A stretch of DNA of 64,000 bases from Thermotoga petrophila RKU-1 (GCF_000016785.1 NC_009486.1:1612001-1676000); one strand, 5' to 3'; positions 7,127-20,249 are shown, counted from the stretch's first letter. The notes: generated by a model from the letters alone, not told the origin. Program-made: numbers and translations.

Positions 7127-7426
7127 TTGAGCTTGATAGAAAACGTGGTGGCCCTTATTCTGGTAGGAGTTGTTTTTGCGTTTTTTGTTCTTTTTCTCAA
7201 CCAGGTTATTGAGAAATCCATGAGGTATTATGTGGACATAACGAAAATTTTCCAGATCCAAAAAAATCTGGATGAGATATTTGTAGCAGAGGAACTGTAC
7301 GACGGCTTTGAAGAAGTCAATTCTGCTCTCGTTTTGAGAAAGAACGGTGATTCGGAAACCCTGAGTATAACTCTTTACAGATCGAGTGAGAAAAATCCGG
7401 TCTTTGTTTTCACGTATGCGAAATGA
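7127..7426 (+). CDS. Small pilin-like membrane protein
   Basis: 99 residues from a TTG start with GAGGAGGG six bases upstream. The first residues read MSLIENVVALILVGVVFAFFVLF, resembling the mature start of type IV pilins (SLIEV.VAL.I) with a glutamate at position 5, followed by one long hydrophobic helix and an amphipathic, mostly polar C-terminal part. There is no room for a leader peptide: an in-frame stop lies 15 bases upstream. It is either a leaderless pilin-like protein or a single-span membrane protein that mimics one. Flanked by other pilin-like genes. Confidence 0.65.
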   Translation: MSLIENVVALILVGVVFAFFVLFLNQVIEKSMRYYVDITKIFQIQKNLDEIFVAEELYDGFEEVNSALVLRKNGDSETLSITLYRSSEKNPVFVFTYAK

Positions 7427-7436
7427 GGTGGTCAGT

Positions 7437-8744
7437 GTGAAAGGAAGCGCACTGGTTTTTGCCCTTCTGGTTATGATTTTAATGTCAGCGGTTTTTCTTG
7501 TTACACTGAGTGTGTATAAAAAAGTGGAAAGAGACTACATCACCGAACTGAAAAAAATCATGGTTTTCAACGTTACACGAAGTACTCTGGAGACAGTTTA
7601 CGAATACCTCAAATCCAAACCCGATAAATTACGGGCGTATCTCGGTGAATTTCAAGCGGAATTGAAAGAGTTTCCTGGAACGGTAAAGCTTGTGCTCTCT
7701 GAAATTGGAGAAGACAATTACAAGCTAACCTGCACCTCTGTACTGGATGAGTTCACCGACACTCAAACGATCGTTTTCAGAAAAAAAAGCAATCTTTTTT
7801 CTTACGCAGTGGTTGCTCTTGGAAAGCTGAATCTTTCTAATGTCGCAGAAATTTACGGGAATGTTCTGTATAGAGGGGAAAGCAAGCTTTCTGTTCCAAA
7901 CAACTTCGTTCTCAACGGTAATTTGATCGTTGAGAAGGCCGAACTTGAACTTTCTAACAATGCAGTAATAACTGGAAACGTAGAAGTTCAGAACTCAAAT
8001 CTCACCATGTCTAACAAATCCCGTATTGGAAGTCCTGATAAACCTTCCATTGTGAAGGTAAAAGAGAATGTAGTTTTGCGTAACAACTCAGAGTTGTACG
8101 GAGACGTTTATGCGGGCGGAAATGTAGAGAGTTCCGGAACGATATCTGGTCAAACTTTTGAAAACCGTGATGACATCGCTTTTTCCAATCCTCCCAATTT
8201 TCCTCCACCTGAGATTCCAAACGATCTTCCTTCACCAAGTGGAGAACTGGTTCTCTGGCATAGAGAACAAACTCTCACATCGGGCACTTACAGTTACAGT
8301 GCTGTAAAAGTTCAAGAAAAGAGTAAATTAATTGTCGATACATCGAACAGCGATGTTATTTTGAGAGTTGGAGAGTTAAATGTCGATATTGATGGAATAA
8401 TCGAGGTTAAAGGATCGAACAACCTTATTATCTATGTGGATCAAAAAGTTACCTTTTCAAACAACGCGGAGTTTAAGACACCAGATGGTGGAAAGGTTTT
8501 CATCGTATCTGATAAAAATGTTGACATCTCATTCTCTAACAATTCAAGTATAGAAAACCTGTACATTTACGCACCGGGTGCAAAGGTAACGTTCAGTAAC
8601 AATGCAAGTTTCAAAGGCTCTGTTGTGGCCGGAGATGTGAGTTTGTCGAACAATGCGGAATTTGTAGAACCTCAATCTGTTCCTGTGGAAGTTTCTGGAG
8701 AATCCAGTGCCGATTTTGAAATCGTCGAATGGGGGAAAGACTGA
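7437..8744 (+). CDS. PilX-like minor pilin with repetitive beta-solenoid body
   Basis: 435 residues from GTG 7437, chosen because GAGGTGG lies just upstream; an ATG at 7419 has no ribosome site. The N-terminus MKGSALVFALLVMILMSAVFLV is PilX-like: very short leader ending in Gly, then a hydrophobic helix without Glu5. From about residue 130 onwards there are many short repeats around the motif (L/F)SNN(A/S) plus G-N-V or G-S-V turns (for example LSNNAVITGNVEV, FSNNASFKGSVVAGDV), the pattern of a right-handed beta-helix or bactofilin-like polymer fold. A proline-rich linker (NPPNFPPPEIPNDLP) divides two repeat blocks. Probably a surface adhesin or tip component; function inferred. Confidence 0.7.
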   Translation: MKGSALVFALLVMILMSAVFLVTLSVYKKVERDYITELKKIMVFNVTRSTLETVYEYLKSKPDKLRAYLGEFQAELKEFPGTVKLVLSEIGEDNYKLTCTSVLDEFTDTQTIVFRKKSNLFSYAVVALGKLNLSNVAEIYGNVLYRGESKLSVPNNFVLNGNLIVEKAELELSNNAVITGNVEVQNSNLTMSNKSRIGSPDKPSIVKVKENVVLRNNSELYGDVYAGGNVESSGTISGQTFENRDDIAFSNPPNFPPPEIPNDLPSPSGELVLWHREQTLTSGTYSYSAVKVQEKSKLIVDTSNSDVILRVGELNVDIDGIIEVKGSNNLIIYVDQKVTFSNNAEFKTPDGGKVFIVSDKNVDISFSNNSSIENLYIYAPGAKVTFSNNASFKGSVVAGDVSLSNNAEFVEPQSVPVEVSGESSADFEIVEWGKD

Positions 8745-9241
8745 TGAGAAGTGGTTATACCCTGGTTGAAACTCTTGTTTCTTTCATCGTTTTGATAGTT
8801 ATTCTGGGGACATTTTTCATCGTTTCGATGTACTCTATAAGAACTCTGAATATCGTGAAAGATTTTGGAGAATACTCCTACCTTTTGAGTACGATGAAAA
8901 GCAAGATCACAAACCTGCTTCTGTTCGCGTCGGATGCCACAGCGGTGGATACTTACCCGTCACTGGACAATCAGTGTGTGCTGTACAAAGAAGGAAAATC
9001 ACTGATCTTCGAGTGTTCCGATGGAGAAAAAATATACCTCTCTGATAACATTTCCGATGCAACATTCATCGTGAAAACCTTTTCTATCAGAGACAAACCG
9101 AGAAAAATCGTTGTCTTTCATATCGGTGTTCTAACACCGTTTGAAGGCCAAACCGCAGCCACTTTTTCCGTGCCACTCATGAACTCCCACAGATCTTCAG
9201 GGGCAACTTCTGAAGGGAAGTATCTCCTAGTAGAGTACTAA
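8744..9241 (+). CDS. Type IV prepilin-like protein
   Basis: 165 residues. ATG 8744 overlaps the stop of the preceding gene by one base; an ATG 15 bases earlier is an alternative. The N-terminus reads MRSG then YTLVETLVSFIVLIVI, a clear prepilin-peptidase site (G|YTLVE, Glu at +5) followed by a hydrophobic helix. The rest is a small soluble domain of beta-type composition. Such proteins are cleaved and N-methylated by PilD and polymerised as minor pilins/pseudopilins. Last gene of the cluster; a flagellar pair follows after a promoter. Confidence 0.82.
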   Translation: MRSGYTLVETLVSFIVLIVILGTFFIVSMYSIRTLNIVKDFGEYSYLLSTMKSKITNLLLFASDATAVDTYPSLDNQCVLYKEGKSLIFECSDGEKIYLSDNISDATFIVKTFSIRDKPRKIVVFHIGVLTPFEGQTAATFSVPLMNSHRSSGATSEGKYLLVEY

Positions 9242-11645: not shown

Positions 11646-12695
11646 ATGAGTATTTTTGTGAAAACCTTTGGTGGAACAAGAGTTATCAAGGATGGTGATT
11701 TTGTAAACGCAAGAGACTGGCCATCGCAGAAAGCATTTGCGCTGTTCAGGTATCTCGTTTTCAGAGGAAATGAGGAAGTGTCCGTTGAAGAGATCTACAA
11801 CCTCTTTTGGGAAGGCATGGACGACACATTCGCGAAATCCAACCTGAACACCACACTCCATATCATAAGGAAAACCACCGGAATAACGAGCGAACAGCTC
11901 TTTGTGAAGGGAGACCTCTGCTGTTTCTTCCCGGGAAACGAAATCACCATAGACGTGGATGTTTTCGAAGAATGCCACAAAAGTCTGATGAAAACCACGT
12001 CAGATACTGAACGTGAAAAACTCCTTAAGAAGATGTTCGAGATCTACACAGGTCCCTTTCTGATCGAAGACATTTTCGCAGAATGGATTCAGGAAATCAG
12101 AGAAATCTACGAATCGTGGTACTCGGATGTTCTGAAAGAACTCTTCGAGTTGTACTTGTCGAAAAAAGATTACAACGCTGCTCTCGAGATGGTGAACGTT
12201 TATTTTCAGAGGGAACCTTACGATGAGGACATGTACTACAGAACAATAGAGGTTCTTCTGAAAAAGGGCGAGATCACAAGGGCAAAACGCGTATACGACA
12301 GACTCTCAAGTCATCTTATGGAGATAGGGATAAAACCTCGATTGAAATTCGATGATTTTCTCTCCAAAAGGAGCTCAGAATTCATGCTGAATGGCAACAA
12401 AGCAATTGTGGTCGATGAAAAGCTCTTTGAGAAGTTTCTCTTTCTGGAGAGTCGAAGGAGAGAAAAATCCTTTGTCCTAGTTGAAGTGAAACTGACAGAT
12501 AAGAGTATTAACACTGAAGATGTCTCCCAAAAAGTAGCGTTTCACCTTCGAAAAGGTGACGTGATTACCTTCTCAGGTGAAACTATCCGAATTCTCTTCC
12601 ACTGTCCTGAACAGCGTCGTCCAACAATGGAAAAACGCGTGGTAAACACACTTGAGAAAATAGGGCTGAAGAAAGGCCAGTACGAAATTTCCTGA
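11646..12695 (+). CDS. SARP/BTAD-type transcriptional regulator
   Basis: 349 residues. Residues 1-95 look like an OmpR-type winged helix (DWPSQKAFALFRYLVFRGN then VEEIYNLFWEG, LNTTLHIIRKTTG), the form found in SARP activators. Residues 97-245 match the bacterial transcriptional activator domain (BTAD), a TPR-like helical array with FEIYTGPFLIEDIFAEW and YFQREPYDEDMYYRTIEVLL. The last ~95 residues are an additional alpha/beta domain (KSFVLVEVKLTD ... RKGDVITFSGETIRILF) that I do not recognise. It lies alone between the flagellar and secretin gene groups, with its own promoter, so regulation of one of these neighbours is plausible but unproven. Confidence 0.82.
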   Translation: MSIFVKTFGGTRVIKDGDFVNARDWPSQKAFALFRYLVFRGNEEVSVEEIYNLFWEGMDDTFAKSNLNTTLHIIRKTTGITSEQLFVKGDLCCFFPGNEITIDVDVFEECHKSLMKTTSDTEREKLLKKMFEIYTGPFLIEDIFAEWIQEIREIYESWYSDVLKELFELYLSKKDYNAALEMVNVYFQREPYDEDMYYRTIEVLLKKGEITRAKRVYDRLSSHLMEIGIKPRLKFDDFLSKRSSEFMLNGNKAIVVDEKLFEKFLFLESRRREKSFVLVEVKLTDKSINTEDVSQKVAFHLRKGDVITFSGETIRILFHCPEQRRPTMEKRVVNTLEKIGLKKGQYEIS

Positions 12696-12706
12696 AAATG
12701 CAGATT

Positions 12707-12747
12707 AAAAAATAGCGCCGCCACCTCGCATGTGAAACAGCGACGCT
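12707..12747 (-). terminator. Probable terminator of the secretin-cluster operon
   Basis: On the minus strand an imperfect 8-bp stem (AGCGTCGC with GCGGCGCT, one mismatch) closes a long loop and is followed by A and six T. It lies about 50 bases after the stop of the barrel-like protein gene at 12799. Confidence 0.5.
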
Positions 12748-12798: not shown

Positions 12799-13905
12799 TC
12801 AGAACGAGTATCTCACTCCGATGAAAATTCTGTAATTCGTAGAGTCATACACTACTCCCAGAAGAACAGTTATACTCTTGCTGAGATCATACCCTGCACT
12901 TAGTGACGTCTCCCACGACATTTTTTCGAGTGTCCAGTGACTTTTGAAAGAAAGGCTTGCGGAAAATCTGTCGAACTTCAGATCCCCCCTACCCCACCAG
13001 AGTATTCCGGAGAATTTTGTGAGATCGAAGAGCACGTACACACCAGCTGAGAGAGAAAGGTTTCCCACACTGGTACGATCTGAAAATCCAGCTCCCAAAT
13101 ATCTGAACCGCCAGTAGATAGCCCCGAGTTTCAATTCTTCTCCAAACAGTTTCGTTTCTACGAGAAGTCCATCGGGAAAAGAAGCGGAAAAGTGGATACT
13201 TTTGTTCAACCAGAGACTTATTTTAGCTTCTGGGTAAGAGGAAATCAGTATGAAACTCTCTTCAGACTTTTCTTCTTTACCCATGAACTCCTCAAGCCCA
13301 GAAATGTTTCCCGCAACGAAAACTTTTTCTTCAGGTGGTTTTTCTACAACAAGAGCCCTGCAGAAAACGACCATTCTGTGTTCTTTCTCATCCGTTTCGA
13401 ATTTGGAATAAGCAATCGGTTGAAAGTCCTCTTGAGAGATCCATATCTTTGTTCGAAGATGTGCGCTGTCCAGTCTCATTTCGATATCAGATAGAACACT
13501 TTGTTTATCCAGCTGTTGTGGTGTTATCGAAAGGTACATCTCTTGCACCGTTGTCATTCCCTGTGTTACTGTGAGGATCTCCTCCCTTCCTACACGTAGG
13601 ACGGCCGATTTTCCGAGAACGGTCAGGATCCAGGGTTTTGAAAGAATTCTATAAGAATCGCGTATCACGGGAAATTTCACTTTTATGGAGAATGGAAAAA
13701 GCTTCAGTTCTATCGTATCATTCGAATAGTGTATCGAACCCTCGTTGGACTCATCGGTACTGAGATAGAGCTCCTCCAGAGAAACTCTAATTCCGGTGCT
13801 CTCTTTCACTTCTGCCATTACAAACTGATACATGATCATGGGCTCCGAGAACACTGTTGCAAAAGCGAGAATCAGAAAGATCATCAGCGACCATTTCATG
13901 ATCAC
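12799..13905 (-). CDS. Exported protein with likely C-terminal outer-membrane beta-barrel
   Basis: 368 residues with a signal peptide (residues 3-20, cleavage near FSEP). Not a family I recognise with certainty. The middle (about 95-180) has a secretin-beta-like flavour (VGREEILTVTQGMTTVQEMYLSITPQ). From about residue 225 alternating polar/hydrophobic strands recur (SLSAGVYVLFDL, SASLSFKSHWTL, WETSLSAGYDL) and the chain ends in IFIGVRYSF, a terminal phenylalanine as in outer-membrane barrels. It would sit in the outer sheath (toga). It starts within the last bases of the secretin gene (4-nt overlap), so the two are translationally linked and may act together. Confidence 0.65.
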   Translation of the reverse strand: MIMKWSLMIFLILAFATVFSEPMIMYQFVMAEVKESTGIRVSLEELYLSTDESNEGSIHYSNDTIELKLFPFSIKVKFPVIRDSYRILSKPWILTVLGKSAVLRVGREEILTVTQGMTTVQEMYLSITPQQLDKQSVLSDIEMRLDSAHLRTKIWISQEDFQPIAYSKFETDEKEHRMVVFCRALVVEKPPEEKVFVAGNISGLEEFMGKEEKSEESFILISSYPEAKISLWLNKSIHFSASFPDGLLVETKLFGEELKLGAIYWRFRYLGAGFSDRTSVGNLSLSAGVYVLFDLTKFSGILWWGRGDLKFDRFSASLSFKSHWTLEKMSWETSLSAGYDLSKSITVLLGVVYDSTNYRIFIGVRYSF

Positions 13906-15065
13906 TCACTTCCCTGGATTTCCGCCTTGATGAATATGTAGAGTTCTTTTTGGGAATCTTTTTTCGTTGTACCACCGAAGAGGTATCGTATGAGTGGGAT
14001 CTTGTTCAATATGGGCACACCGGAGCCGGTCTGGGCGCTGTCTTCGATGGTGGCACCGGAGATCACAACGGTCTGACCATTTTTCAGGAAAAGTGTTGTA
14101 GAGAGTTCGTTCTGTTTTACAGCGAATGTTCCGAGTTTCTCTCCTGCGAAGTGACTGACTTTTGGTGAGAGTGTAAGCTCGAGTTCTTCTTTGTCCATCA
14201 CACGCGGTTGAATCTCGATGCTCACTCCAACGTCTATGGACTCGATTCTGCTCACCGCTCCTTCGGCCTCGAGGAGAACAACCTGTCTTTCCCCTAAGAA
14301 AAGAGAGGCCTTTTCTCCACTCTTCACGATGATCCAGGGATCGGCTGTGATCTTCGCTTTCTGATCTTCCTCGAGGAGTTTTAATTTTGCCAGAATTTGG
14401 CCAAAAACGTCTGTCTGAACATTGAGGATTCCTGTTACCAAACCGAGAGTAGCCGTCCAGTTCTCGTTGAATTCCTGCCCGGAACCGAAGGAATAATCTA
14501 AACTGTTCAATCCCAGTTCATTCGAATAATCTCTGGAAATTTCTGTGACGATCACACTGATCTTCACCTGTGGTATCGGGATGTCTATCTTTTTGAGATC
14601 TTCCTCGAATTCCCGTATGATCTCTTCAGGTGCTGTGATGGTTATCATGTTGTTCTTCTCGTTGAACCTGACGTAATTCCTGTAAACTGCTGGCAAGAGT
14701 TCCTGGGCATCGGCTGTGGTTATGTATTTCAACTTGTAGGTCCCTGTAACTGCAAGGTATCTGAAGGCGGGATTCGCTGGATCTGGTGATCCCACGAAGT
14801 AAAACCCGTCCATCTTTTTGAAAACATACCCTCCAGGCATGAGGATCATCTTCAGTGCCTGCTCTAAGGGTACTTCGTTGAGCTCCATAGTGATGAAGCC
14901 AGTCACAGTAGTGTCCGCTATGATTGGAATTCCTGTCTGTGCGGAGATGTCTGAGAGGGCATCCAGAATGTATGTATCCTGGAATATGTTGCTCACAAGA
15001 GGTTCCTCCTGCGTTATCACCACCACCGCTATCAATACGAATAAAACGAAACTGAGTTTTCTCAT
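13902..15065 (-). CDS. Secretin (GspD/PilQ superfamily), compact form
   Basis: 387 residues, short for the family. A signal peptide (1-18) is followed by an STN-type domain (about 28-75: DALSDISAQTGIPIIADTTV), an N1/NolW-like KH fold (about 108-160: YKLKYITTADAQELLPAVY) and the secretin core (about 167-383: ISVIVTEISRDYSNELG through VPILNKIPLIRYLFGG). The VPxLxxIPxxxxLFG signature is intact. Secretins form gated outer-membrane channels for type II secretion, type IV pili or phage export; the small N-terminal part suggests a minimal channel. Neighbours are an Ig-like protein and three paralogous secreted proteins rather than GspC/E/F genes. Confidence 0.88.
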   Translation of the reverse strand: MRKLSFVLFVLIAVVVITQEEPLVSNIFQDTYILDALSDISAQTGIPIIADTTVTGFITMELNEVPLEQALKMILMPGGYVFKKMDGFYFVGSPDPANPAFRYLAVTGTYKLKYITTADAQELLPAVYRNYVRFNEKNNMITITAPEEIIREFEEDLKKIDIPIPQVKISVIVTEISRDYSNELGLNSLDYSFGSGQEFNENWTATLGLVTGILNVQTDVFGQILAKLKLLEEDQKAKITADPWIIVKSGEKASLFLGERQVVLLEAEGAVSRIESIDVGVSIEIQPRVMDKEELELTLSPKVSHFAGEKLGTFAVKQNELSTTLFLKNGQTVVISGATIEDSAQTGSGVPILNKIPLIRYLFGGTTKKDSQKELYIFIKAEIQGSE

Positions 15066-16693
15066 TCCCCATTCCTCCCTTCCATCTGGAAAGACTTTCT
15101 CAAAACGATCGGTGTCTTACCGTAGTCGCACCTTGCAAGCAGTTCGTACTGACTCTCTTCCAGCACAATGGGTATGAAAATGCTGAAGATCCTCTTCGTT
15201 CCTGGAAGAACAGGATTCGTTGACGAAATCTCTTCCTGAATGAGACTTTCCACTTTCTCTGGTATTATGAGACCTTCGTCCGTTACCTGCTGAGGCGTGA
15301 TCCTGTTCAAACCGAAAGTGATCTTTGGCAGAAGATGATAGTTTCCTGTGTTCTCAAAAATGATGTCCGCATAAACACCATCTTCTTTCACGGTGTAAAC
15401 CAGATCGGCGCTCGCTTCTATTGTGATGTCTTCATCCTTTCCGACAAACACAAGAAGATTCGCTCCTACTTCCGTCTTTAAACCCCCTTCTGTTTTAAAG
15501 ATCACATCCGCATAATAACCCCCCGTGAAATTTTCTGGAACTCTCACGGCGACACGCACGTTTCTGGACTGTCCAGGTCTCAAACTGAAAGAAGACGGAG
15601 TGAGGTTGATCCAGTCGGGAGGAGTACCCCTTTCTTCTTCCGGAAGGATCTCCCCGTAGATGTCGTAAACCAGGGGTAGAATCTTTCCTTCCACCTGAAG
15701 GGTCTCTTCTCCCAGGTTCGATACTTTCACTATCGATGATCGGTATGATCCTGGAAGTGCCTTAATTTCGATGTCTACTGGATCAATTGTGATCATCACA
15801 GGATTTGCTTCCTTCTTCTCTTCTTCGGTTTCCACTTTTTCTGAACTCACTGTGAACGTGGTCTCTGCCACGATCGGTCTCCTTCCACCGTAATCGACAA
15901 CGGCCCTCGCGATGTATTCTCCGGGAGGAAAGAATCTTCTTGTGATCGTTCTCATGTTGACCGTGCTGTCGGGGAGAACAACTCCTCTTCCCGCACCAAG
16001 TGGCATCTTCGCTATTGTTCGACCTTCTTTTGTTTTTATCGTGAGTGTACCTTTCGTGATTATGTGAACATTGCTCTTGTTCAAAACTCCAAGAGTGAAT
16101 ACCAGTGCTCCGTCTCCTATCTGTATCCTTATGGAAGGTATATCATCGGACCTTTCCACTTTGAAATAGGCGGGGAATGCCTCTATCCTCTTTCTCGTTC
16201 CGGAGACAACGATTTCTAAAAAACTCGCCATCCTGTATTTGAATTCGATCTCACCGTAGGCTCCCTCTTCGGTGGGCCTTTGTGTCTCTTGTGATTGAGG
16301 TGTCTGGATTTCAAAGGTAACGGCGCCGTAGAGTCCTCCAGAAACACCCCTTGGAACGTTCACCGTGACGATGACCGTTTTGGTTTCCTTGGGGGGAACG
16401 GTGATCGTATCGGGTTCCACCCTCACCCACCTTGCGATCGAATATTTTGTGCTTCCCGGCTGTTTCAGATCGTACGCTCCTTCCACTGTTTCGACTACAT
16501 CCATAACCAGTGCCTTCAAAGTGATGGATTCGAATTCGCTGTCGTTCTCCAAGAAGATCTCGTAGCTGAAACTCGTTCCCGGGTTCACAGTTTTACTCAC
16601 CACAATGGGATCCATTCGAATGGAAATACCCTGCGCAAGAAAAACAGCACTCATCAGAATCAGAACCATTAAACTTATCCTTCTCATCCCCAT
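15062..16693 (-). CDS. Exported tandem Ig-like protein resembling DUF916/WxL-interacting proteins
   Basis: About 543 residues from ATG 16693; a GTG three bases upstream and an ATG six bases downstream are alternatives behind the same GGGAGA site. A signal peptide (residues 5-22) precedes two homologous halves of about 260 residues. Each half contains an Ig-like strand set ending in a Gly-Gly-(L/Y)-Y turn (VPRGVSGGLYGAVTFE in the first, VPENFTGGYYADVIFK in the second) and a closing segment (EYIARAVVDYGGRRPIV versus QYELLARCDYGKTPIV). This layout resembles DUF916/WxLIP or periplasmic chaperone-like proteins that bind surface proteins. Stop and start overlap with the secretin gene; likely a partner in surface protein display. 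Confidence 0.7.
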   Translation of the reverse strand: MGMRRISLMVLILMSAVFLAQGISIRMDPIVVSKTVNPGTSFSYEIFLENDSEFESITLKALVMDVVETVEGAYDLKQPGSTKYSIARWVRVEPDTITVPPKETKTVIVTVNVPRGVSGGLYGAVTFEIQTPQSQETQRPTEEGAYGEIEFKYRMASFLEIVVSGTRKRIEAFPAYFKVERSDDIPSIRIQIGDGALVFTLGVLNKSNVHIITKGTLTIKTKEGRTIAKMPLGAGRGVVLPDSTVNMRTITRRFFPPGEYIARAVVDYGGRRPIVAETTFTVSSEKVETEEEKKEANPVMITIDPVDIEIKALPGSYRSSIVKVSNLGEETLQVEGKILPLVYDIYGEILPEEERGTPPDWINLTPSSFSLRPGQSRNVRVAVRVPENFTGGYYADVIFKTEGGLKTEVGANLLVFVGKDEDITIEASADLVYTVKEDGVYADIIFENTGNYHLLPKITFGLNRITPQQVTDEGLIIPEKVESLIQEEISSTNPVLPGTKRIFSIFIPIVLEESQYELLARCDYGKTPIVLRKSFQMEGRNGE

Positions 16694-16704
16694 CACTCTC
16701 CCAT

Positions 16705-16741
16705 AAAAAAATAAAAGGCGAGGGAAGAAGCCCCTCGCCTT
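16705..16741 (-). terminator. Strong hairpin terminator between secreted-protein genes
   Basis: A perfect 10-bp stem AAGGCGAGGG/CCCTCGCCTT (16741-16732 with 16724-16715), 7-nt loop, then TTATTTTTTT on the minus strand. It follows the first secreted paralogue gene and lies just upstream of the Ig-like gene start, so it should cut transcription between them and make the paralogues more abundant than the secretin genes. Confidence 0.88.
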
Positions 16742-16756
16742 CCTTTTTCAAAAGAT

Positions 16757-17404
16757 TTATCTCTGGCTGTTCACGTATTCTTCGAGATCTTCCACGTAGT
16801 CTCCTTCGTCGTCTATCCAAGGTTTCTGGTTCTTGAGGGTGAGTATTATTATTCCAGAATCTCTGTAGGTGGATGCACTGTTGCATCTTTCAACGTGTAT
16901 CCTGTTCCAGAGTTTGTAAGTCACACCATTGTGAAGGATTTGGCTGTCAGGTACCAGAAGACTGACATCATTCAGTTCAGGTGCTGGTGTCCAGATATTT
17001 TCTGGTATTGGAAGTTGTGGCCCAAACGCGTAGTCTACTTCGATCGTATCATCGATGCTCGTTCCCGTTGCGTACTTCAGGTGATCAAACCCGCTGAAGG
17101 TGATCTCAAGATCGCTGTTGCTTTGAAGTGTGGCTGAGATACAGTTGGCAACGTACGTTCCAGGTTTTCTCACGAACCAGGTCCATTTTGTTCCTGTAAG
17201 ACTCCACTTCACCCACTGGGCAACCTGAACCTCGAGGGTCACAGGAATTTCCCACTGACGCTTGTTACAGTTACCGCTCTCTGGCATGTCTATGAATACC
17301 CTTGCGTTATCTGGATCTCCATTATAAGCGTAAACGTCTACGAATTCAGCGAAGAACATGGAACTCACTACCAAAGCCAGCATAATCAACAAAAGTCTTC
17401 TCAT
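16757..17404 (-). CDS. Secreted protein of a three-member paralogous family (copy 1)
   Basis: 215 residues with a signal peptide (1-19). Homologous over its whole length to the next gene and, over the last ~150 residues, to the third. Shared marks: GNCNKRQWEI, TKWTWFVRKPG, LHNGVTYKLWNRI, CNSASTY followed by D-SG, and a C-terminal QKPWIDDEGDYVEDLEEYV. Cysteines in CNK and CNSASTY, conserved in copy 2, probably pair as an extracellular disulfide; a third Cys follows YVAN. Beta-rich and acidic near the end. No known family recognised. Preceded by GGAGGGG and followed by a strong terminator. Confidence 0.75.
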   Translation of the reverse strand: MRRLLLIMLALVVSSMFFAEFVDVYAYNGDPDNARVFIDMPESGNCNKRQWEIPVTLEVQVAQWVKWSLTGTKWTWFVRKPGTYVANCISATLQSNSDLEITFSGFDHLKYATGTSIDDTIEVDYAFGPQLPIPENIWTPAPELNDVSLLVPDSQILHNGVTYKLWNRIHVERCNSASTYRDSGIIILTLKNQKPWIDDEGDYVEDLEEYVNSQR

Positions 17405-17459
17405 ACCAATCCCCTCCTCAATTATCCTCGATAGAGTTCATTACTTATCATTGTCTTTC

Positions 17460-18137
17460 CTATCTTTCATTGGTCACGTAATTTTCAAGATCTTCCACAT
17501 AGTTTCCTTCCTCGTCGATCCACGGCTTTTGATTCTGGAGTGTCAGGTAGATGTACCCGGTGTCTCTGTAGGTGGACGCGCTGTTGCATTCAACCACATT
17601 GATTCTGTTCCAGAGGTAGAAAGTCAATCCATTGTGGAGGTCCTCGCTATCGACCAGTGTGTAGGAAAGATCGTTGACATTTGGTGCCCTCACCCAGCTA
17701 TCCTGATCTGGCATACCTCCTGTTGTCATCACTGCGTAATACGCTTCGATTTCTGGATTGACACTGCTTGTTCCTGTGTAGGTTGGATCGTCGAAGCCAC
17801 TGAAGCTCACAAGAACATCACCGTTGCTTGCTACTGTTCCTGTAACAGAGTTCGCGTAGTAATCCCCGGGTTTTCTCACAAACCATGTCCACTTCGTCGC
17901 GCTCAAACTCCATTCGAGCCACTGGGCGACTTGAACTTCTGTTGTAAATTGAATCTGCCATTCAGGTTTGTTACAGGACCCATCGGTTGGGAACGCGCTG
18001 AACGCCCTTGCCAGGTCGTTTGTTGCTGGTAGACTGATGTACTCACCATCCACGTACTGCCAGACTTCAAGTATTGACTGTGCCAGTGCAAATGTGAACA
18101 AAACTCCCATCAAAACTAACCAGAGTAACTTTCTCAT
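17460..18137 (-). CDS. Secreted protein of a three-member paralogous family (copy 2)
   Basis: 225 residues with a signal peptide (1-19, ...FALAQ). It repeats the motifs of copy 1 nearly residue for residue: GSCNKPEWQI, EVQVAQWLEWSL, TKWTWFVRKPGDYY, LHNGLTFYLWNRI, CNSASTY then DTG, and QKPWIDEEGNYVEDLENYV. The central 40 residues differ more, with GTVASNGDVLVSFSGFD. Probably a beta-sandwich subunit exported to the periplasm or toga. It has its own AGGAGGGG ribosome site and lies 20 nt after the third copy. Function unknown; repetition in tandem suggests subunits of a common surface layer or fibre. Confidence 0.75.
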   Translation of the reverse strand: MRKLLWLVLMGVLFTFALAQSILEVWQYVDGEYISLPATNDLARAFSAFPTDGSCNKPEWQIQFTTEVQVAQWLEWSLSATKWTWFVRKPGDYYANSVTGTVASNGDVLVSFSGFDDPTYTGTSSVNPEIEAYYAVMTTGGMPDQDSWVRAPNVNDLSYTLVDSEDLHNGLTFYLWNRINVVECNSASTYRDTGYIYLTLQNQKPWIDEEGNYVEDLENYVTNER

Positions 18138-18156
18138 AAAAATCCCCTCCTTCTAC

Positions 18157-19098
18157 TCACCTTTCTGGTGAGGTATCGATGTACAGTTTAGAATTGCTGA
18201 TGGTGAAGGTTATAACGCCCGTGCTGGTGTAGGTGTCCGCTGACAGACTCTTTGGAACGTTGATTTTTTGCCACAGAGAAAAGCTGTCTTCCAGAAAACT
18301 GAGGTCGTCGAACCACTCTGTGGGAATCTCGTCACCATAGGCCACTTTCAAATCCACATCGGTTGACTCATTTGAGGGATCGGGAAGATTCACGTAGATC
18401 GAAAGATGCGTGTTCGCTTCAACTTCGAGCACCTTCACAACGTACACACCCGGTTTCTTCACAAACCAGGTGACCTTTGTACCGCTCAGGTGGATCTTCA
18501 CGCACCGCGAAAGCCTTCCTCCCCATGCGGTTTCTTCTCTTCCACTGCTGCTACTCACAACTCCATGAAGAAGAATGTAGTATTTGTTGTTCAGCCTTTT
18601 CAACCCGGTGAAACTGTTTTGGAAAAGAAAGGAGAGAGGAACCTTAAAGATGTAGATGTTCACGGGTGAGTCAAACTCTTCCTTGAACGGAAACTGACCC
18701 GGCGCCTGATTCCCCTCGGGCTCTTCGGAGAGAACGTTGAGGTGTGTTTCTTCCAGATTCCACTCATCGCTGATATCCACTCTGACGTAGAGATATTCTG
18801 AATCGTTCCAGACGGTGACGGTTCCCACCACCGTGTCCTGACCTGCCCAGAAGCTGAAAAGTTTCTCCCCATCTCCCAGCTCGTATTCCATGTAGTAGTA
18901 CCATTGACCCTTCCCACGATAGGAGTTCATTTCAACAACGCTCCCTGTGGTTTGTCTCTGAGCAGGTGGGAGGACAAACACATCTTCCTTGATTTCTTTT
19001 TCCCACCTCCCGAGTTCTTTGTTGTATTTATAGATCGTCGTGGAAAAAGAAAGAACGAAAAGAAAAACAATGAAAACCCCCAATCCCCATCTTCTCAC
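18157..19098 (-). CDS. Secreted protein, third paralogue with an extra N-terminal domain
   Basis: 313 residues from a GTG behind GGAGGCGG, signal peptide 1-20. The C-terminal half (about 200-313) matches copies 1 and 2 (GTKVTWFVKKPGVYVV, SLWQKINVP, DTYTSTGVITFTI) but lacks their Cys pair and the acidic tail. The N-terminal half (about 45-150) has VVGTVTVWNDSEYLYVRVDIS and EWNLEETHLNV, a pattern I know from many secreted or cell-surface proteins of unclear role. Could be an anchor or the first subunit. First gene of the minus-strand cluster; divergent from the cupin gene with an inverted repeat between. Confidence 0.72.
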   Translation of the reverse strand: MRRWGLGVFIVFLFVLSFSTTIYKYNKELGRWEKEIKEDVFVLPPAQRQTTGSVVEMNSYRGKGQWYYYMEYELGDGEKLFSFWAGQDTVVGTVTVWNDSEYLYVRVDISDEWNLEETHLNVLSEEPEGNQAPGQFPFKEEFDSPVNIYIFKVPLSFLFQNSFTGLKRLNNKYYILLHGVVSSSSGREETAWGGRLSRCVKIHLSGTKVTWFVKKPGVYVVKVLEVEANTHLSIYVNLPDPSNESTDVDLKVAYGDEIPTEWFDDLSFLEDSFSLWQKINVPKSLSADTYTSTGVITFTISNSKLYIDTSPER

Positions 19099-19227: not shown

Positions 19228-19497
19228 GTGGAAATGAAGATAGAAAAGCCCACACCCGAGAAACTCAAGGAACTCAGCGTTGAGAAATGGCCCATCTGGG
19301 AAAAAGAGGTCAGCGAGTTCGATTGGTACTACGATACGAACGAGACCTGCTACATACTGGAAGGCAAGGTGGAAGTCACAACAGAGGATGGAAAAAAGTA
19401 CGTCATAGAGAAAGGTGATCTCGTCACCTTTCCGAAAGGTTTGAGGTGCAGGTGGAAGGTTTTAGAGCCGGTCAGAAAGCACTACAACCTCTTCTGA
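19228..19497 (+). CDS. Small single-domain cupin
   Basis: 89 residues from GTG 19228, chosen because GGGAGGT ends seven bases upstream; a GTG nine bases earlier overlaps that site. A single cupin barrel of the DUF861/EutQ-like size: residues 25-60 SEFDWYYDTNETCYILEGKVEV and 65-85 KGDLVTFPKGLRCRWKV give the two cupin motifs. The usual metal-binding histidines are mostly absent (Tyr, Thr and Cys positions instead), so metal use is doubtful. T. maritima has an equivalent structure with no known function. The SRP RNA promoter starts within its last codons. Confidence 0.85.
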   Translation: MEMKIEKPTPEKLKELSVEKWPIWEKEVSEFDWYYDTNETCYILEGKVEVTTEDGKKYVIEKGDLVTFPKGLRCRWKVLEPVRKHYNLF

Positions 19498-19499
19498 AC

Positions 19500-19528
19500 T
19501 TGAAACCTTCTGGAAAGTGTTGTAGAAT
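19500..19528 (+). promoter_or_regulatory. Promoter of the SRP RNA gene
   Basis: TTGAAA at 19500-19505, exactly 17 nt, TAGAAT at 19523-19528. The expected start, about 19534-19536, coincides with the first base-paired nucleotides of the SRP RNA. Confidence 0.8.
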
Positions 19529-19533
19529 ACTGA

Positions 19534-19807
19534 TGCACCACGCTAGGCGGGGGGCTGGCGGTCCCCTGTACCCGAAATCCGCCGTACGCGGGGCCGAATT
19601 CCCACCCGAGGCTCTTCGGGTCGGGAAACGGCGTGACTCGGGGGCGATGAAGACCGGGTCCCACGCAACGGAACCCTGTGAACCTGGTCAGGCCCGGGAG
19701 GGAGCAGCCATAAGCAGGTGTTTCCGTGTGCCGTGGGGGAGCCCGGTTGGAGCCTTCCGATCATGCACGCCCCGGTCCGGAGAAGTCGACGGTGGGTGCG
19801 TGGTGCA
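19534..19807 (+). ncRNA. ffs: Signal recognition particle RNA (long bacterial type with Alu domain)
   Basis: About 274 nt. The 5' and 3' ends pair perfectly over ten bases: TGCACCACGC (19534-19543) with GCGTGGTGCA (19798-19807). The Alu-domain signature follows the 5' strand (GCTAGGCGGGG, CCTGTACCCGAAATCCGC), and the S-domain apical loop is canonical: AACCTGGTCAGGCCC (19681-19695), a GGGA tetraloop, GGGAGCAGCC. It binds Ffh and targets ribosomes making membrane proteins. A T-rich stretch ATTTTTCTTCT right after the 3' end can terminate transcription. The start codon of the next gene lies inside the 3' strand. Confidence 0.96.
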
Positions 19808-20249
19808 TTTTTCTTCTGGTTACTCCCTCGTTGAAACGTTGGCCCTCATGTTCTGCATTTGCATGGTTGTGATGATAGGTCTTTTTTCACTTTCTCTCGC
19901 TATGAAGACACGTGCCCGCCTCGTTTACGACATCGATCTTCTGACTGACGAATTCTACGCAGTGGATTTTATGAGACACGAATACGAGGTGAAAGCCGCG
20001 GCGTCTCCCTCTGTTTCTGTCACATCGAACAGGTTGAGTTTTAACGCGGATTACGATAAGAAAACTGGTACGATCTCTTACCTTGTAATATTCAAGGACG
20101 GTCTGTACAAGATTGTTCGTTTCGGTCTGAGTGGAGAGGGGAACAACTATCTGATAGAAACAAAAAAGAAAATTCACTTTTCACGGGAAGGGAAGGTATT
20201 CTCCGTGACGATAGGGGACACTATCTACGACCTTGGGATCTCAGAGTAG
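19800..20249 (+). CDS. Type IV prepilin-like protein starting inside the SRP RNA gene
   Basis: 149 residues if GTG 19800 is used (GTG 19803 is equally possible; a GGTGGG lies 3-6 bases upstream). The N-terminus VVHFSSG then YSLVETLALMFCICMVVMIG has a clear prepilin-peptidase site with Glu at +5 and a hydrophobic helix; any later start would remove it. The remaining ~110 residues are a soluble beta-type domain. It resembles the pilin-like gene at 8744 and probably joins the same pseudopilus. Both start codon and ribosome site lie in the paired 3' strand of the SRP RNA. The stop overlaps the convergent antiporter gene by 9 nt. Confidence 0.72.
   Translation: MVHFSSGYSLVETLALMFCICMVVMIGLFSLSLAMKTRARLVYDIDLLTDEFYAVDFMRHEYEVKAAASPSVSVTSNRLSFNADYDKKTGTISYLVIFKDGLYKIVRFGLSGEGNNYLIETKKKIHFSREGKVFSVTIGDTIYDLGISE

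Follow-up and report, generated by a model that had tools for sequence, protein, structure and literature searches.

The window, i.e., the whole stretch of 64,000 nucleotides that was analyzed, comes from the genome of Thermotoga petrophila RKU-1, a single contig of 1,823,511 bp. The six minus-strand ORFs predicted here between positions 12,799 and 19,098 are present, co-directional and kept together as a unit in relatives. The first four lie 19, 55 and 60 nt apart, in that order, and each of the remaining two overlaps the preceding gene by 4 nt (Ig/secretin and secretin/barrel). In a hydropathy scan, each of the six encoded proteins exhibits a Sec-type signal-peptide-like N-terminus, as originally claimed, and no second strong hydrophobic segment. 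The reported lack of T2SS core genes (GspC/E/F/G) within the group was likewise upheld. The features of the locus are as follows:

18157–19098, minus strand: para0, secreted two-domain subunit of 313 aa (ORF; signal peptide; no Pfam or NCBIfam family)
17460–18137, minus strand: para1, secreted pilin-like subunit of 225 aa (ORF; AF2 model; structural matches)
16757–17404, minus strand: para2, secreted pilin-like subunit of 215 aa (ORF; 52% identity to para1)
16713–16743, minus strand: terminator-like hairpin with a T run in the gap between subunit and machinery genes, a candidate attenuator (dG -26.9, z -4.05)
15062–16696, minus strand: tandem WxLIP-like Ig protein of 544 aa with four Ig-like domains, a proposed periplasmic chaperone (PF06030, 8e-8; AF2; WxLIP 9i1y/9i25; internal duplication)
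13902–15065, minus strand: compact secretin (N0-N1-secretin) of 387 aa, a proposed outer-membrane channel (Pfam; tree)
12799–13905, minus strand: putatively secretin-derived protein of 368 aa with a predicted C-terminal outer-membrane beta-barrel (hhalign; beta-signal)
12714–12747, minus strand: terminator-like hairpin that closes the gene set
11646–12695, plus strand: BTAD-domain transcription regulator of 349 aa, converging on the gene set (PF03704)

The gene set is linked far beyond chance, since the unit turns up again in the majority of the Thermotogota studied and also in further phyla. Among 61 Thermotogota genomes, a compact secretin lies within 3 kb of the Ig gene at 38 of 39 Ig loci, and an Ig gene was detected at 38 of 43 compact-secretin loci, at least three of the other five starting at a contig end. 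The secreted subunits were not found to occur regularly without their partners, as the Ig gene is present within 3 kb at 21 of the 22 subunit loci of these genomes, the exception being a contig end. At another of these five secretin loci (G052), the Ig position is taken by a 518-aa protein that was missed by single-sequence search and labeled as Ig by the family profile. Outside Thermotogota, one scan of species genomes revealed relatives in Halanaerobiaceae/Halobacteroidaceae, in other Bacillota MAGs and in one Atribacterota MAG. The module is repeated in most Bacillota neighborhoods, reaching two to four copies in some genomes, and, within the order to which one Halanaerobiaceae MAG belongs, a search with the Ig profile only placed the double Ig protein in about 9 of 38 genomes. 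The Atribacterota MAG has a partial module, with the Ig genes on a different contig from the secretin/barrel pair. Distant versions in other families retain the Ig–secretin–barrel order, while the adjoining subunits are very different. A second locus of genome G010 (L111:6562-8473 and G010:C19 16277-16537) has apparently decayed: its barrel gene is intact, the secretin is present as fragments and no Ig gene was found there. The suggestion that the genes serve to build the toga was not supported, since toga-less bacteria also carry the module (Halanaerobiales and further Bacillota, together with a partial version in the Atribacterota MAG) and these loci are absent from the main text of a toga proteomics paper (PMC3387000).

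Two elements of the locus had escaped the original prediction. One is the hairpin between the subunit and machinery genes: of 41 subunit–Ig gaps, 21 contain a terminator-like hairpin with a T run, compared with an expectation of 0.16 from mononucleotide shuffles; about six of the 41 gaps come from one genus and a few represent duplicates or single-Ig loci. The stems are of unrelated sequence in different lineages. In turn, the Ig gene mostly abuts or overlaps the secretin gene across loci. Such a layout fits subunits made in excess and would be expected where many subunits are needed per machine; in the pap and fim operons, a hairpin likewise lies between subunit and machinery genes. The other element is the BTAD regulator, which belongs to the module; the genome encodes no other PF03704 protein, and BTAD genes adjoin around 16 loci.

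The Ig protein had been described as tandem Ig-like and resembling DUF916/WxLIP, and both traits were borne out. It scores above the Pfam cut-off for WxLIP_PGBD/DUF916 (PF06030; 32.8 vs. 27.3 bits, E 8e-8), as well as for fn3_5 and FixG_C, and its two halves are homologous (hhalign probability 99.7 over 232 columns). The AF2 model, built from 12 sequences (pLDDT 84.8), contains four Ig-like domains. The top lines of the Foldseek search with this model were giant multi-Ig chains with TM of about 0.2; the first meaningful two-domain overlay was the Enterococcus faecium WxLIP (9i1y/9i25; TM by target 0.46–0.55), so that the model resembles WxLIP and not PapD. A PDB sequence search with the Ig profile gave nothing significant. 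WxLIP proteins are thought to be wall-bound partners rather than shuttling chaperones, which is a point against a chaperone reading. Nevertheless, WxLIP forms a perpendicular Ig pair that was proposed, from AlphaFold2, to insert a beta strand into WxL (PMC10599100), and on account of this predicted strand insertion the module protein may be regarded as chaperone-like. At four loci (L144, L155, L157, and L158), single-unit Ig relatives form trios with a small secreted protein and a protein of 830–1330 aa, and the start of L156, which is cut by a contig end, matches these trios. We considered the large trio proteins as ushers and rejected this assignment, as their Pfam domains are SdrD_B, CarboxypepD_reg, DUF11, and FlgD_ig and not PF00577; the trios perhaps represent another export system with the same helper.

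The kinship with WxLIP raises an alternative, according to which the Ig protein holds the subunits on peptidoglycan or the cell surface in a WxL-like manner, the secretin and barrel proteins serve merely as a route, and neither a strand-donating chaperone nor a fiber is involved. It would account for the PF06030 match, shared by 6 of 12 family members, and for WxLIP being the best two-domain structural match; moreover, a single WxLIP accompanied by secreted beta proteins is a feature of WxL clusters too (PMC10599100). Yet, we consider anchoring unlikely, as the WxL domain (PF13731) was found in none of the 61 Thermotogota genomes (Lactococcus control positive), and the Ig protein gave no DUF3324 hit in the Pfam scan and no C-terminal transmembrane helix in the hydropathy scan. 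Further points against it are that the Ig gene is strictly linked to genes for a secretin and an outer-membrane barrel, a linkage that WxL clusters lack, and that the subunit model matches pilins, albeit weakly.

Concerning the subunits, the original description of three paralogous secreted proteins holds in part: para1 and para2 are full-length paralogs with 52% identity, while the 313-aa para0 shares just its C-terminal ~110 aa with them and carries an extra N-terminal domain (extra domain at residues ~42–195, subunit domain at ~199–310). Neither para1 nor para2 belongs to a Pfam family; para0 gave only sub-threshold Pfam hits and no NCBIfam family, and for its N-terminal domain no significant match was found in Pfam, NCBIfam, or PDB. 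Residues ~42–195 of para0, with the motif ETHLxV...GNQxPGQFPxK...ETAWGG, make up a candidate adhesin domain. By analogy with two-domain adhesins, para0 is a likely candidate for a tip/adhesin or founding subunit.

The AF2 model of para1 (pLDDT 83, 11-sequence alignment) weakly resembles fiber subunits and not unrelated enzymes. Chaperone-usher pilins, namely CfaB, FimA/F/G/I, CsuA/B, CsuE, PapH, and the PapG pilin domain, constitute 31 of its 50 best PDB structural matches, many of the matching chains being redundant FimA/FimI entries, and cannulae and TasA appear as well; these matches are weak, the best E being 1.7e-3, so that no match reaches 0.001, and TM by target lies mostly in the range of 0.2–0.5. 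PDB sequence searches with the subunit profiles returned nothing significant, and spore-coat-U membership was rejected, being indicated by a single relative at E 0.08. Profile comparison linked subunits across lineages (e.g., E 7e-17, 1e-9, and 4e-11; pairwise values from profiles that include the signal peptides). The motif [ST]N-x(1,3)-alternating hydrophobics, picked after inspection, is present in 40 of 56 subunits vs. 56 of 270 other ORFs, and many subunits end in a G-x-Y-type last strand.

These data also bear on the idea of a two-step export of soluble or coat proteins that form no fiber, with the Ig protein as carrier, the secretin/barrel pair as gated exit and the subunits as coat or enzyme-like proteins. 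Both the length and the sequence of the subunits indeed vary greatly from lineage to lineage, and the cannulae among their structural matches are tubes, not thin pili. However, the common ending and SN motif suggest one polymerizing subunit family, and the attenuator-like hairpins fit a high-copy structural subunit, which makes export without a fiber improbable in our opinion.

The product of the fifth gene agrees with its description as a compact secretin, with PF00263 (E 1.7e-37) and Secretin_N (3e-8) both over the cut-off and N0/STN below it. It falls under the NCBIfam subfamily cut-offs for PilQ (123.7 vs. 284 bits), GspD (103.5 vs. 351), and SctC/YscC (88 vs. 238). In an unrooted tree built on the secretin core, in which some rows are long, one branch (88/99) parts 17 PilQ/GspD-type secretins from 35 compact ones of the same genomes, and within the compact group the sequences of Thermotogota and Bacillota are intermixed (97/97 for 20 rows). 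At L104:8073-9232, the compact secretin of genome G036 is split into two ORFs, by a frameshift or a sequencing error. As a rule, secretins act together with an inner-membrane assembly motor. The gene set encodes none, and no ATPase/platform gene was recognized beside the window locus or more than 30 relatives (ORFs read; HMM scan of some neighbors). The compact secretin is probably the ortholog of T. maritima TM1117, an identity that we presume from the place of TM1117 beside TM0088 in a table of competence genes and from the gene order counted from the locus number of the neighboring cupin.

That it is PilQ, as annotated, in a type IV pilus or competence channel with the operon neighbors as accessory pilus/competence proteins is very improbable: the competence gene table of PMC5637354 lists TM1117, next to TM0088, under the name PilQ and prepilin-like genes flank the locus at distances of 4–5 kb and 0.7 kb, but the genome has a second, long secretin, tree grouping and the far lower subfamily score both disfavor this identity, and it is the Ig and subunit genes that recur beside the secretin, where no pilus ATPase/platform gene was recognized. 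The prepilin-like genes, all on the plus strand (7386–8744, 8729–9241, and ~19805–20249; DUF7305 PilX-like, N_methyl-like, and one directly after the SRP RNA), were left aside, as the other loci do not have them. The large bacterial SRP RNA (RF01854) occupies 19538–19803 on the plus strand; part of the ORF called across it (19446–20249, plus strand) is spurious, with the probable start of the prepilin near 19805.

The last protein of the set (368 aa) gave only sub-threshold Pfam hits. Its description as barrel-like is in line with a prediction from the C-terminal outer-membrane beta-signal with a terminal aromatic residue: the window protein ends in IGVRYSF, and such a signal ends 14 of 31 relatives vs. 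11 of 550 controls. What had gone unnoticed is its putative secretin origin. Close relatives align with the secretin C-terminal region (hhalign probability 95, E 2e-8) and distant ones with N0-N1 (probability 99.9, E 1.5e-31), 10 of 19 distant relatives having STN hits. The Atribacterota version has N0 and N1 together with a truncated secretin domain, and its C-terminal extension ends in the barrel signal. For these reasons, the barrel protein looks like a secretin paralog that gained a barrel and whose N-domains were lost in Thermotoga. In Atribacterota, two secretins are adjacent (L127:1448-3196 and L127:252-1451), of which the second carries a barrel-type extension at its C-terminus; this pair may represent the ancestral form of the barrel protein. 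Elsewhere, at L110:5796-8775, the Ig gene is directly followed by a barrel-family gene with no compact secretin, and at three loci (L093:12446-13165, L111:7853-8473, and L112:2548-3273) the barrel gene is followed by an extra secreted protein of ~200–240 aa, for which no family was found.

Taken together, it is highly probable that the genes make up an envelope module dedicated to export/assembly, whose cargo is the small proteins; the original proposal of a surface-assembly set, in which the secretin and barrel proteins form the outer-membrane part, the Ig protein resembles a chaperone and the subunits are exported, is supported. As to how it may work, we infer a chaperone–secretin pathway, like chaperone–usher but with a secretin in place of the usher, a full mechanism for which the prospects seem to us evenly balanced. 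Sec would carry the pilin-like beta subunits para0, para1, and para2 to the periplasm. There they would be bound and stabilized by the tandem WxLIP-like Ig protein, probably through a beta strand that it lends, and passed to the dedicated compact secretin ring. This ring and its secretin-derived barrel partner would constitute the outer-membrane exit. Outside the cell, the subunits may polymerize into a fiber by donor-strand exchange, with the two-domain para0 as its likely tip or founding subunit. The BTAD regulator would control the gene set and the hairpin after the subunit genes would keep subunits in excess over the machinery.

Somewhat more tentatively, the module could represent an undescribed class of outer-membrane fiber assembly, in which a secretin without an ATPase-driven platform replaces the usher, and a dedicated export system of Thermotogota that is also present in diderm Bacillota. 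In the open-access papers searched we found no description of such a module, and the only published mention encountered was that of TM1117 as PilQ in the competence table (PMC5637354). The component families are known, and their combination appears undescribed in this literature; the novelty concerns the architecture, with a predicted function. According to Abby et al. (PMC4793230), Thermotogae were the sole diderm clade with none of the protein secretion systems searched for, and were guessed perhaps to possess their own. The module provides a concrete candidate for such a system, in cultivated species, and is common to diderm Bacillota, a group of importance to the question of how the outer membrane arose. 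Provided that the proposed pathway is true, secretins can act as fiber exits without a motor, the chaperone–usher logic arose a second time from different parts and the annotation of TM1117 as PilQ is to be corrected.

Several known systems share single traits with the module. TasA/camelysin fibers and Pyrodictium cannulae, which are donor-strand polymers, show a weak fold match to the module subunit, but they work without a secretin, the cannulae have no known chaperone, and neither matches the module subunits in sequence. With T2SS, type IV pili, Tad, and T3SS, the module has in common an outer-membrane ring with N0, N1, and secretin domains; its secretin, in contrast, belongs to a separate lineage below all subfamily cut-offs and no assembly ATPase/platform was recognized within the module. 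The Gram-positive WxL/WxLIP clusters are approached through the Ig protein, which passes the WxLIP_PGBD cut-off and matches 9i1y/9i25. Yet, the module possesses two WxLIP-like units and a secretin in the operon, and it is not a member of these clusters because there is no WxL domain, DUF3324 hit, or membrane helix. In turn, it is not a chaperone–usher system, since neither the usher (PF00577) nor the PapD-type chaperone (PF00345, PapD_N) was found over the cut-off in any of the 61 Thermotogota genomes, the E. coli controls being positive; the exit is instead a secretin with a probable secretin-derived barrel, and the Ig protein is a double WxLIP-like pair. What the module shares with the Fim, Pap, Csu, and CFA/I systems is the make-up of the gene set itself: putatively pilin-like subunits with a larger two-domain subunit, a gene for an Ig-fold helper and a gene for an outer-membrane exit.
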